Below the pieces are notes generated by a model. The model saw only the letters and a program-made list of their open reading frames with translations. It ran no database searches and was not told where the DNA came from. This document shows positions 33,087 through 35,893 of a DNA stretch of 64,000 nt, one piece after another. The DNA lies in the NCBI RefSeq assembly GCF_007556595.1, contig NZ_VJNB01000007.1:1-64000 (forward strand), given 5' to 3'. Every line of letters begins with the position of its first letter. The stretch's first letter is position 1. This DNA is from Tepidimonas alkaliphilus (GTDB lineage Bacteria; Pseudomonadota; Gammaproteobacteria; Burkholderiales; Burkholderiaceae_C). A program made the position numbers and the translations under genes.

Positions 33087-33815
33087 TCACTCGGCGGTGC
33101 TGGGGCTCCAAAACGCTTGCCGCACCGCCGGCAGCGCCGCGATGCGGCGCACCAACGCGTCGAGCTCGTCGGCATCGACGCTGGTGGCGGTCAAGGTCGC
33201 TTCGATTTCCACATCCTCGTCGCCAAAGGCATGGATGTCGAGCTCGCGCACGGGGTAGCGGTAGCGCTCCAGCTCCGCCTCCAGCACCGTCAACACTTCC
33301 TTTTGACGCTCTTTGTCGGCGATCACATACACGGTGTTGGTGACTTCCACCGACTCCACGTCCAGCGGCTGGCGGTTGATGGCGTTGACCACCGGGCGCA
33401 GAAGGGTGTTGGCGGCCAGCACGAACAGCGTGCCCAGCGCCGCCTCCAGCAGCAAGCCCGCACCGCAAGCCACGCCGATGGCTGCCGAGCCCCACAGCGT
33501 GGCGGCGGTGTTGATGCCGCGGATGTTGCCCTCCTCGCGCATGATGACGCCGGCGCCGAGGAACCCGACCCCCGAGACGACATACGCCACCACGTGCAAG
33601 GGGCTTGGGGTGCCGCCGTAGAGCGCGTGAAAGCGCATGGCGATATCGACGAACAGCGCGGCGCCAAGCGCCACCAGCACGTTGGTGCGCAGCCCGGCGG
33701 TGCGCTGTCGGTATTGCCGCTCCAGCCCGATCAAGCCGCCGAGCACAAACGCCAATGTCAAGCTGGCCAAGGTGTTGAGCGCGGCAGCGCCGTCGAGGTG
33801 GTGCAGCATCAGCAT
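33087..33815 (-). CDS. mgtC: MgtC family protein
   Basis: A 242-residue membrane protein: LAFVLGGLIGLERQYRQRTAGLRT and VVSGVGFLGAGVIMREEGNIRGINTAA are the MgtC signatures, followed by a C-terminal cytosolic domain. MgtC proteins favour survival at low Mg2+ and in some species inhibit the F-type ATPase. The ATG at 33815 has GGAG six bases upstream; a TTG four codons earlier is less likely. It lies 116 nt downstream of mgtE on the same strand with a hairpin between them. Confidence 0.9.
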   Translation of the reverse strand: MLMLHHLDGAAALNTLASLTLAFVLGGLIGLERQYRQRTAGLRTNVLVALGAALFVDIAMRFHALYGGTPSPLHVVAYVVSGVGFLGAGVIMREEGNIRGINTAATLWGSAAIGVACGAGLLLEAALGTLFVLAANTLLRPVVNAINRQPLDVESVEVTNTVYVIADKERQKEVLTVLEAELERYRYPVRELDIHAFGDEDVEIEATLTATSVDADELDALVRRIAALPAVRQAFWSPSTAE

Positions 33816-33931: not shown

Positions 33932-35353
33932 TCACGCTCCGGCGGCTTGCCGCAGCGTATCGCCCATGACCACGTAGGCGATGCCAAAGTAGATGAACAC
34001 CCCCACCAAGTCCATGACCGAGGTGATCAGCGGCGACGACAGCGTGGCCGGGTCCGTGCCGATGCGCCGTGCCGCAAACGGCAGCAGCGCCCCGATGATG
34101 CCGCCCAGCGCCGTGCAGGTCAGCATCGCCAGCCCGACCACCAGCAGCACGTCCGGGCCGACGCCTTTGCTGAAGTAGGCCAGCACCGCCTCCAGCAGCG
34201 CGATGACCACCCCCAGCGCCGCCGCCACTGGCAGCTCGCGCCGGATCACGCGCCAAAGGTCACGCCACTTCAGCTTGACCTCGCCCAGCGCCATGGCCCG
34301 GATGACCAGCGTGGCCGACTGGCTGCCGGTGTTGCCGCCCATGTCCACGATCGGCGCGATGAAGGCCGCCAGCACGATGACCTGCGACAACAGCTCCTCC
34401 TGCTCGGCGACGAAGGTGCTGGTCAGGATGCCGAAGAAGGTCAGGACGACCAGCCAGAACACCCGCACGCCGAACATCCGCTTGAACGGCGTGTTCAGGA
34501 TATCCAGATCGACCGAGCCCGCGGAGGTCAGCGCCGCCGTGCCGCCGAAGCGCGCCAGTTGCGAGGCGTCTTCGCGCTTTTCGATCTCCATCGCGTCATC
34601 GACGGTGACGATGCCGATCATCTTGTCGCCGCCGTTGACCACCGGCAGCGCCAGCAGGCCGTAGCGACGGATCAGCTCGGCGGCCTTCAGACGTGGCCAG
34701 GTGGCGCGCGCAAACACCGGGTCGCGCCGCATCACCTCGGCGACGGTGGCCTTGTCGTCGGCCAGCAGCAGGTCGCGCAGCGACACCGTGCCGCGCAGAC
34801 GGAAGTGCTGGTCGAGCACATAGATGACGTAGATGGTCTCCTTGTCCGGCGCGGTGGCGCGCACGTGCGCCAGCGCTTCGGCCACTGTCATCTCTGGGGC
34901 GACATAGACGTAGTCCGAGGTCGTCACCGAGCCGACCGTGCCTTCGGGGTAGGAAGCCAGCTTCAGGATGTCGTCGCGCTCGACCTTGGCCAGCGCCGGC
35001 AGCAGCTTCTGGCGCGCTTCTTCGCCCAAGCGGTTGAACAGATCGGCGCGGTCATCTGAGGGCATGTGCTCGAAGAGCTGCACCACGGCCTCGCGCGGCA
35101 TGGCGCGCAGCAGCTCGTCCTGCCGCGCCGGCGGGAAGTGCGCAAACAGCTCGGCGCGCTGCGGCGCGGCCAGCAGCAACAGCAGCGCCACCGTGTCCTC
35201 GATCGAGGCGCTTTCCAGCGCTTCGACAAGGTCGGACGGATGGGTGCGCTTGACCAGGTGCGCAAAGCCGACGGCGTCGCGCGAGCGCGTCAGCGTGCGC
35301 ACCGCAAACAACAGGTCTTCGCGGGTGATGGCGGTGGACTTCAGTTCGGTCAT
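33932..35353 (-). CDS. mgtE: MgtE-type magnesium transporter
   Basis: A 473-residue MgtE: an N-terminal Mg2+-sensing superhelix (repeats such as LFEHMPSDDRADLFNRL), a tandem CBS pair (about 150-260, including LPVVNGGDKMIGIVTVDD) and a five-helix membrane domain with the pore signature AFIAPIVDMGGNTGSQSATL. MgtE is a gated Mg2+ channel that closes at high internal Mg2+. The ATG at 35353 was chosen over 35368 because GGGAG lies seven bases upstream. That Shine-Dalgarno is buried in a 10-bp stem and a leader ORF precedes it (see those entries), so expression is probably controlled at translation. Confidence 0.95.
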   Translation of the reverse strand: MTELKSTAITREDLLFAVRTLTRSRDAVGFAHLVKRTHPSDLVEALESASIEDTVALLLLLAAPQRAELFAHFPPARQDELLRAMPREAVVQLFEHMPSDDRADLFNRLGEEARQKLLPALAKVERDDILKLASYPEGTVGSVTTSDYVYVAPEMTVAEALAHVRATAPDKETIYVIYVLDQHFRLRGTVSLRDLLLADDKATVAEVMRRDPVFARATWPRLKAAELIRRYGLLALPVVNGGDKMIGIVTVDDAMEIEKREDASQLARFGGTAALTSAGSVDLDILNTPFKRMFGVRVFWLVVLTFFGILTSTFVAEQEELLSQVIVLAAFIAPIVDMGGNTGSQSATLVIRAMALGEVKLKWRDLWRVIRRELPVAAALGVVIALLEAVLAYFSKGVGPDVLLVVGLAMLTCTALGGIIGALLPFAARRIGTDPATLSSPLITSVMDLVGVFIYFGIAYVVMGDTLRQAAGA

Positions 35354-35354
35354 G

Positions 35355-35407
35355 GCGTGCTCCCTCAACGTTGGAGGTGGGCCGCAAGCCAGCCCACGGG
35401 AGCACGC
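35355..35407 (-). promoter_or_regulatory. Stem sequestering the mgtE Shine-Dalgarno
   Basis: In the minus-strand RNA, GCGTGCTCCC (plus 35398-35407) pairs perfectly over 10 bp with GGGAGCACGC (plus 35355-35364), which contains the whole mgtE Shine-Dalgarno and ends one base before the ATG. A second 6-bp hairpin, GTGGGC/GCCCAC (35392-35397 with 35377-35382), stacks inside it. When folded, ribosome access to mgtE should be blocked. The 5' arm begins seven bases after the leader ORF stop codon. Confidence 0.8.
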
Positions 35408-35413
35408 TGCGCG

Positions 35414-35563
35414 CTACGGCTTGCGACGCCGTAACGTCGCGCAGGAGCGAACGCCGCCGTGGGCCAGGGCTGGCCCGGTTGATGTCAAGAATCGAACAGG
35501 CATCGGGCGATCCGGCGCACAGGCCGGCTCAGGCTCAGGCTCAGGTTCAGGATCTGGATCCAT
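35414..35563 (-). CDS. MgtL-like leader peptide upstream of mgtE
   Basis: A 49-codon ORF with an ideal AAGGAG (plus 35570-35575) six bases before its ATG. The product begins MDPDPEPEPEPEP: six consecutive acidic-proline pairs at residues 2-13; it ends in a basic LRRRKP. Enterobacterial MgtL (start MEPDPTP) uses such residues to make translating ribosomes fall apart when Mg2+ is low, switching on mgtA. This ORF precedes the Mg2+ transporter mgtE, so the same role is inferred. It is not proven that it is translated. It shows no homology to a larger protein family that I recognise. Confidence 0.7.
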   Translation of the reverse strand: MDPDPEPEPEPEPACAPDRPMPVRFLTSTGPALAHGGVRSCATLRRRKP

Positions 35564-35639
35564 GGCGCGCTCCTTGTCGTGGTCAAAGGTCAAGCCGAAG
35601 GCTGCCCGAGCGGGCAATCCTCGAACCATCCAGCCTGGA

Positions 35640-35850
35640 CAGAGCGAGTGCTGGAGAATGCGAACGCGCGCTGTTAGCCAAGCAAATTTTGGCCTCCAGT
35701 TCTGAGAGGCCAAGGTATCAGGCTAACCACGACTTGGTGTCAAACCAAGTTGCGTCATCGCCAGCTGCCTGCATGAGGCAGCCAGCCGATGCGATGCACC
35801 GAAGACCGACCAACCTCACGCAGACCGAGTTAACCGACAACTCGAACTGT
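35640..35850 (-). ncRNA. Structured 5' region of the mgtE leader RNA
   Basis: Four hairpins are visible in the minus-strand transcript before the leader ORF. Plus-strand coordinates: CGAGTT/AACTCG (35826-35831, 35839-35844); GCTGCCT/AGGCAGC (35764-35770, 35776-35782); ACTTGGT/ACCAAGT (35732-35738, 35744-35750); and a nested pair with outer stem GTTAGCC/GGCTAAC (35673-35679, 35721-35727) enclosing TTGGCCTC/GAGGCCAA (35689-35696, 35706-35713). No match to the M-box consensus that I know. It may be a metal-sensing or scaffold domain; its boundaries are approximate. Confidence 0.5.
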
Positions 35851-35884
35851 CCACGTGTGAAGTCTCCGAAAACCGGGGATTCCC

Positions 35885-35893
35885 ATTATAGCA
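35885..35893 (-). promoter_or_regulatory. Extended -10 promoter of the mgtE leader
   Basis: On the minus strand TGCTATAAT combines a consensus -10 (TATAAT) with the TGn extension. No -35 is present at the expected distance, as is allowed for extended -10 promoters. It lies in the otherwise GC-rich gap after the arginase stop. The start site would be near 35878, giving a 5' leader of about 525 nt to the mgtE ATG. Confidence 0.7.

Follow-up and report, generated by a model that had tools for sequence, protein, structure and literature searches.

Two short open reading frames (ORFs), uORF1 and uORF2, stand in tandem in the leader of the magnesium transporter gene mgtE of Tepidimonas alkaliphilus; both are conserved in relatives, both are linked to genes of Mg2+-type transport, and a stem over the next gene's ribosome-binding site is tied to uORF2. 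The arrangement probably represents an MgtL/MgtQ-type system of tandem leader peptides that controls translation of Mg2+ transport operons.

Organisation of the mgtE leader

The window (the whole 64,000-nucleotide stretch that was analysed, from contig NZ_VJNB01000007.1) carries the locus on its minus strand, where an extended -10 promoter, TGC-TATAAT (35885..35893), is read from the sequence and precedes an mgtE leader RNA of about 525 nt; no two-hexamer promoter was returned by a consensus scan of the window leader, and TTGAC was seen by eye upstream of the same place in 10 of 18 other leaders. On this strand, uORF1 (35816..35854) runs for 12 codons from a GTG start to a TGA stop, reads MDSSSCRLTRSA and follows the Shine-Dalgarno sequence CGGAG (35868-35864), and uORF2 (35414..35563) runs for 49 codons, reading MDPDPEPEPEPEPACAPDRP..., from an ATG to the stop TAG (35416-35414), with a Shine-Dalgarno AAGGAG (35575-35570) at a spacing of 6 nt from the start codon. 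The magnesium transporter MgtE (33932..35353, minus; 473 aa, ATG at 35353) is assigned by Pfam (PF03448, PF00571, PF01769) and by NCBIfam TIGR00400 (328 bits), and is followed by an mgtC/SapB-family gene (33087..33815, minus; PF02308, PF21770) starting at ATG 33815, TTG 33827 also being possible. The promoter, the leader and the 49-codon ORF with its AAGGAG had been described in an earlier, sequence-only reading of this DNA and are confirmed from the sequence, as is the order of mgtE and downstream mgtC by the Pfam and NCBIfam assignments.

By eye, a strong intrinsic-terminator-like hairpin, GCCCGGGCGG...CCGCCCGGGC-TTTT (33861-33826, minus), separates mgtE from mgtC, and its T-run is followed directly by the Shine-Dalgarno of mgtC. 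Within the window leader a single intrinsic-terminator-like site was found (35713-35689), against 0.9 expected by chance. Rfam gave no match at gathering score across the whole window, and six related loci searched at E<=1 yielded just two sub-threshold microRNA families; a known Rfam Mg2+ riboswitch (M-box or mgtA leader) was ruled out by the absence of covariance-model matches in the window and these six loci.

Conservation of uORF2

The product of uORF2 begins MDPDPEPEPEPEP, six acidic-proline pairs. ATG followed by Asp-Pro-Asp-Pro-Glu-Pro-Glu-Pro occurs once in the T. alkaliphilus genome, and a looser four-pair motif was found in two of 399 genomes of the order, in the second of which it opens an unrelated 258-aa protein; distant relatives, too, have the shorter start MDPDP, preceded by a Shine-Dalgarno, upstream of mgtE. 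Absence of the leader ORF from relatives had been named beforehand as grounds for abandoning the earlier reading; MDPDP or a close variant was found upstream of mgtE at 14 of 29 loci of the MgtE subfamily, comprising 23 from an MgtE-only scan and six family genomes (window included), or at 12 of 27 once L058 and L059 are merged with L014 and L020, with which they respectively appear to share a species. This recurrence and conservation led to rejection of uORF2 as an orphan or chance ORF. The variants upstream of mgtE are MDPDP, MDPEP, VDPDP, MNPDP and MEPGP, with a Shine-Dalgarno that is nearly always clear and is weak in L022.

In the motif-independent MgtE scan, uORF2 is borne by eight of the 23 loci (L002, L003, L005, L010, L014, L020, L021, L022) and absent from the other 15, namely eight of Stenotrophomonas, four of Desulfovibrionaceae, L018, L019 and the remote L024. 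A close mgtE is present in six of 250 family genomes, all six having (M/V)DPDP with a Shine-Dalgarno upstream, and none of 51 further loci with an MgtE match less than 40% identical (several of them through CBS domains only) carries uORF2, from which it follows that the leader belongs to one MgtE subfamily. The four Desulfovibrionaceae mgtE leaders (L011, L012, L016, L017), in which MDPDP is absent upstream of mgtE, hold Shine-Dalgarno-preceded short ORFs with M(S/P)SDS and MDSH or MDN starts, M(S/P)SDS being seen in three of these loci and the L016 sequence being too short to show it.

Across 12 mgtE leaders the third positions of codons 2-5 are all variable and the first and second positions are fixed, except for one case in codon 2 and one in codon 4, which indicates that selection acts on the peptide. 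The comparison of synonymous and nonsynonymous change proposed earlier thus shows an acidic-proline start conserved as a peptide; since the mgtE-first search demanded Asp/Glu and then CC at codons 2-3, codons 4-5 being free, conservation at codons 2-3 stems in part from the search itself. The MNPDP variant (L005) was recovered from an alignment. Many relatives continue MDPDP-S-R/W-S/R-C/R; by eye the peptides diverge beyond the start, and uORF2 ranges across leaders from 20 to 57 codons (uORF1 from 12 to 37).

The six-pair run is unique to the window among 23 leaders and was rejected as a functional signature, so that the longer motif emphasised in the sequence-only reading gives way to MDPDP as the conserved part. 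The run (35560-35525) is a six-base repeat, (GA-x-CC-x)6, in which slippage could alter run length, and judged by its sequence it looks like an expansion of that repeat.

A second conserved leader ORF, uORF1

uORF1, opening with GTGGACAGTnnCAGT (MDSxS..), lies upstream of uORF2 in 17 of 21 leaders; it was not found in L092, in L117 (within 700 nt), or in L021 and L022, both of which have another acidic ATG ORF at its place. In the window the promoter-proximal GTGGACAGT-nn-CAGT translates as MDSSSCRLTRSA, and before MgtA-type, mgtC and Nramp-family genes uORF1 reads MDSASCCSELKRAVMAATCSAV and similar. In L018, uORF1 is present and uORF2 absent. In an alignment of nine leaders, all gaps within uORF1 are multiples of three. 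The 15 nt of GTGGACAGTnnCAGT (35854-35840 in the window) are near-fixed, including the third positions of the first five codons, a constancy that exceeds what the peptide needs and may reflect an operator or RNA element in addition.

Between the two ORFs, a stretch W-(P/T/S)-T-(H/R)-R-x-R is conserved by eye in the alignment of L088, L089, L090, L095, L096, L099, L101, L106 and L107, all of them leaders of MgtA-type, mgtC or Nramp-type genes, and perhaps belongs to a further small protein.

Genes downstream of the leader

A gene-blind pattern (GGAG, 3-10 nt, RTG GAY CCN GAN CC) was sought in 250 family genomes and occurred at 25 places in 24 of them, of which 15 are short ORFs that precede Mg2+-type genes, namely mgtE at six places (L087, L092, L102-L105), an MgtA-type P-type ATPase at six (L088, L089, L095, L099, L106, L107), an Nramp-family gene for which Mg2+ transport is putative at two (L090, L096) and mgtC at one (L101). 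The presence of the same leader before MgtA-type ATPase, mgtC and Nramp-family genes means that the system is not special to mgtE, the gene before which the earlier reading placed it. Pfam assigns all six ATPases (Cation_ATPase_N), both Nramp genes and MgtC; just the N-terminal part is in view for four of the six ATPases, and their Mg2+ type rests on an NCBIfam TIGR01524 match of L088, a fragment scoring 260 bits, below the whole-protein cut-off, together with likeness to L088. The other ten places were not counted as leaders (L085, L086, L091, L093, L094, L097, L098, L100, L108, L109), L094 and L108, near MgtE_N-like or mgtC-like reading frames, being excluded as unsure. A reversed control pattern is commoner, at about 62 places against 25, so the motif is not over-represented and its location alone is striking.

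A small gene, gene X or gene Y, often stands between leader and transporter. Gene X, for an uncharacterised and probably secreted protein of about 230-260 aa (..VDDAAI..GQCQxEW..), occupies this place in L005, L010, L056, L095, L099, L106, L107, L117 and Stenotrophomonas loci; neither Pfam nor NCBIfam matched its L117 copy. Gene Y encodes a small protein like the MgtE N domain alone and lies between uORF2 and the transporter in L088, L089 and L092; the L089 copy is MgtE_N-like at E=2.7e-5, just under the Pfam cut-off, and the L092 copy has no Pfam match.

The same gene-blind search across 300 genomes of the order gave 17 places, of which the window, L088 and L117 (before gene X, with no transporter in view) look genuine, and the other 14 showed by eye no Mg2+-type gene in the listed frames. 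Approached from the gene, 25 mgtA places in 24 of 150 family genomes include four with MDPDP within the upstream 1.5 kb and one further place with uORF1 only.

A stem over the ribosome-binding site

A ten-base pairing in the window between GCGTGCTCCC (35407-35398) and GGGAGCACGC (35364-35355) forms a predicted stem (35355..35407, minus; p=0.003 against shuffles) that covers the mgtE ribosome-binding site; its 5' arm begins 9 nt downstream, counted from the first base of the stop codon of uORF2. Such a masking stem was detected at p<=0.03 in 11 of 23 uORF2-linked leaders (the window, L002, L087, L088, L090, L096, L102, L106 and L107, 9 of 16; L089 and L117, 2 of 7), the other 12 giving none at that threshold. 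Measured from the first base of the uORF2 stop, the arm begins at 9-19 nt in every one of the 11 (6-16 nt after the stop). At control starts not next to uORF2, a stem was found at one of 22 mgtA starts and none of 11 mgtE starts; 300 shuffles were used per test and 150 per control, and L128, L144 and L147 gave no start, leaving 22 of the 25 mgtA places. The stems are equivalent in relatives, with letters that differ between groups, and since leaders within a group are related the 11 are not independent. Where a small gene intervenes, the stem masks that gene and not the transporter. The start codon used for L101 may be wrong, and L005 was scored at its first listed start (p=0.236), the second giving p=0.050.

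Shuffled sequences fold as well as the entire stem region of the window does (z -0.83), and the full window leader folds better than its own shuffles (z -3.95). An alternative fold linking uORF2 translation to access to the ribosome-binding site was sought in 16 leaders, without any consistent direction of effect. Of 12 leaders searched for a segment that could compete for the masking arm, two, L002 and the window, had one at p<0.05. In the window the strongest such segment is the Shine-Dalgarno of uORF2 itself (p=0.043); it would be accessible only in the absence of an initiating ribosome, and amounts to no more than a lead.

Further upstream, a possible attenuator pairing (35767..35825, minus) joins 35825-35813, over the uORF1 stop, to 35779-35767 through 13 nt of complementarity (p=0.007 against shuffles), 35779-35767 also forming a local hairpin by eye. 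Long-range pairings of 9-13 nt over the uORF1 stop, with differing letters, are present in the window, L002, L003, L005 and L133 (p 0.007-0.040); at p<=0.05 such pairing was found in seven of 21 leaders and a competing pairing of the second arm in four of 21 (window p=0.764). No structure common to all leaders was found.

Distribution and descent

Within the genus an MgtE match is confined to one of 11 genomes, the window's own, so that the module was probably acquired, and a close mgtE is likewise found in one of 220 genomes of the order, again that of the window; with six of 250 in the family, these counts describe a patchy module that probably moves between species. The restriction within the genus, uORF1 (35854-35816) and the masking stem are features beyond the sequence-only reading.

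On a tree of 27 chosen MgtE proteins (without L007, L017 and the near-copies L058 and L059), the uORF2 label requires five changes against 9.0 for shuffled labels, with one of 500 shuffles as low. The label occurs on both deep branches of the MgtE subfamily and is absent from Stenotrophomonas and Desulfovibrionaceae; L022 and L060, both on long branches, group together, and their placement may be wrong. A single early origin of uORF2 followed by losses would be the simpler reading.

A proposed mechanism and its alternatives

The joining of an MgtL-like start to an mgtQ-like masking stem leads to the proposal of Mg2+-dependent drop-off on uORF2. Both ORFs, with their acidic starts (MDSxS, then MDPDP), would be translated in the leader; at low free Mg2+ the Met-Asp-Pro-Asp-Pro start would make the early ribosome prone to fall off uORF2, completion or non-completion of which would decide the fate of the stem hiding the next gene's ribosome-binding site, and uORF1 would form a first, similar gate. 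Uptake genes would in this way be set by ribosome stability, not by a protein or a ligand-binding RNA. Translation, drop-off, the Mg2+ signal and low-Mg2+ induction are suggested by analogy with MgtL and MgtQ and by the transporters' job. A ribosome finishing uORF2 would itself tend to open the stem, which taken alone gives the opposite sign, expression at high Mg2+. Counted against the tandem-switch reading are the 15 of 23 scan loci without uORF2, its absence from all 51 loci with an MgtE match under 40% identical, its presence at only four of 25 mgtA places, the 12 of 23 leaders without a stem, the lack of a consistent alternative pairing, the commoner reversed control and the unexceptional z of the window stem region (-0.83).

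That effect of a finishing ribosome is central to an explanation considered rather unlikely, in which uORF2 would be plain translational coupling: ribosomes that finish it would open the stem and allow the next gene to be translated, the acidic-proline start would set the fraction that finishes, thereby reporting in a general way on ribosome health or on bL31/EttA-type factors, and the transporter would be made when ribosomes are stable, with Mg2+ not the specific signal. With their arms starting at 9-19 nt, counted from the first base of the stop, all 11 stems lie where a terminating ribosome could reach them or only slightly farther off, as coupling would have it, and no consistent competitor structure was found; coupling nevertheless leaves unexplained why the motif precedes four Mg2+-type transport gene families rather than genes at large, and its sign makes little sense for mgtA-type importers. 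Somewhat less likely again is a leader whose action lies mainly in its RNA or DNA, as an undescribed riboswitch or a post-promoter operator, with the near-fixed 15 nt of GTGGACAGTnnCAGT as its key and the ORFs secondary. Such an element would account for third-position constancy in the first five uORF1 codons, for the attenuator-like pairings over the uORF1 stop in seven of 21 leaders and for the better-than-shuffled fold of the window leader (z -3.95), but it fits poorly with uORF1 gaps in multiples of three in nine aligned leaders, with uORF2 codons 2-5 that vary almost only at third positions, and with the lack of a relevant Rfam match in the window and six related loci or of a structure common to all leaders.

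Sensing of proline or of charged tRNA-Pro by uORF2, instead of Mg2+, as has been proposed for mgtP and early on for mgtL, is very improbable. Two to six proline codons do stand at the uORF2 start, and enterobacterial mgtC and mgtA are reported to be preceded by proline-rich leader ORFs (PMC3641672); however, an acidic residue at position 4, left free in the mgtE-first search, is retained in 11 of 12 mgtE leaders, almost matching the prolines in conservation, and Pro-Pro is found within the first five codons of none of 23 leaders, occurring later in some.

Under the preferred reading, that of a Mg2+-responsive tandem leader-peptide system, the paired leader peptides before several unrelated Mg2+-type transporter genes suggest that the ribosome itself may act as the sensor. 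A wider proposal, offered tentatively and with less confidence than the tandem system itself, is that a regulon in Burkholderiales and scattered other Proteobacteria may place the tandem module before MgtE, MgtA-type ATPase, MgtC and Nramp-family genes, sensing Mg2+ through ribosome stability, with unmasking of the ribosome-binding site as its output, and may have evolved apart from, or spread far beyond, the enterobacterial MgtL. If true, acidic-proline ribosome destabilisation would be a portable Mg2+ sensor across bacteria and transporter families and no enterobacterial curiosity confined to mgtA, and the leader would be one of few examples with two such ORFs arranged in tandem. Natural variants make the idea testable, including MDPDP, MDPEP, MNPDP and MEPGP, the six-pair expansion of the window, and uORF1 without MDPDP (L018, L133). 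A search of the open literature, covering titles and abstract openings and with subscription papers mostly outside it, returned no report of a leader peptide before mgtE or of MgtL-type leaders outside enterobacteria.

Comparison with known systems

In Bacillus, the M-box (ykoK) riboswitch precedes mgtE and provides Mg2+-linked control by a leader. Unlike the M-box, the window leader gives no Rfam match and has conserved ORFs instead.

In E. coli and Salmonella the start of MgtL is reported to destabilise the ribosome when Mg2+ is low and thereby to raise mgtA expression, an effect opposed by EttA and bL31 and exerted via Rho termination (PMC11282234, PMC11552253). The likeness to MgtL pointed out in the sequence-only reading is borne out by the first five residues, M-acidic-Pro-Asp-Pro, which match the E. 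coli MgtL record, and by a short ORF that follows a Shine-Dalgarno, lies within the long leader of a Mg2+ importer gene and has an acidic-proline start conserved at the peptide level in 12 mgtE leaders; some related leaders precede an MgtA-type ATPase. The leaders differ from that of MgtL in their second uORF, in having as visible switch a ribosome-binding-site stem adjoining the uORF2 stop, and in serving mgtE, mgtC and Nramp-family genes. Of the MgtL-like reading overall, the conserved acidic-proline ORF therefore stands, and the six-pair run and the restriction to mgtE fall away; a likeness of five residues fits independent origin and common descent alike.

Tandem short ORFs in a single leader of a Mg2+ operon are shared with the Salmonella mgtCBR leader, where mgtM is reported to respond to ATP via adenines and mgtP to proline, both acting on transcription (PMC3641672). 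In Salmonella mgtQ, translation of mgtB is reported to depend on acidic codons 2 and 5, via a masking stem-loop (PMC8092293). The leaders described here resemble mgtQ in their early acidic codons followed by a stem-loop that masks the next gene's ribosome-binding site, such a stem lying beside the uORF in 11 of 23 leaders, the window among them, and depart from it in that mgtQ has eight codons and lies between mgtC and mgtB, whereas two tandem uORFs here occupy the 5' end of the transcript. With its second uORF and its stem, the layout resembles Salmonella mgtQ-mgtB more than the Rho-terminator arrangement of MgtL.
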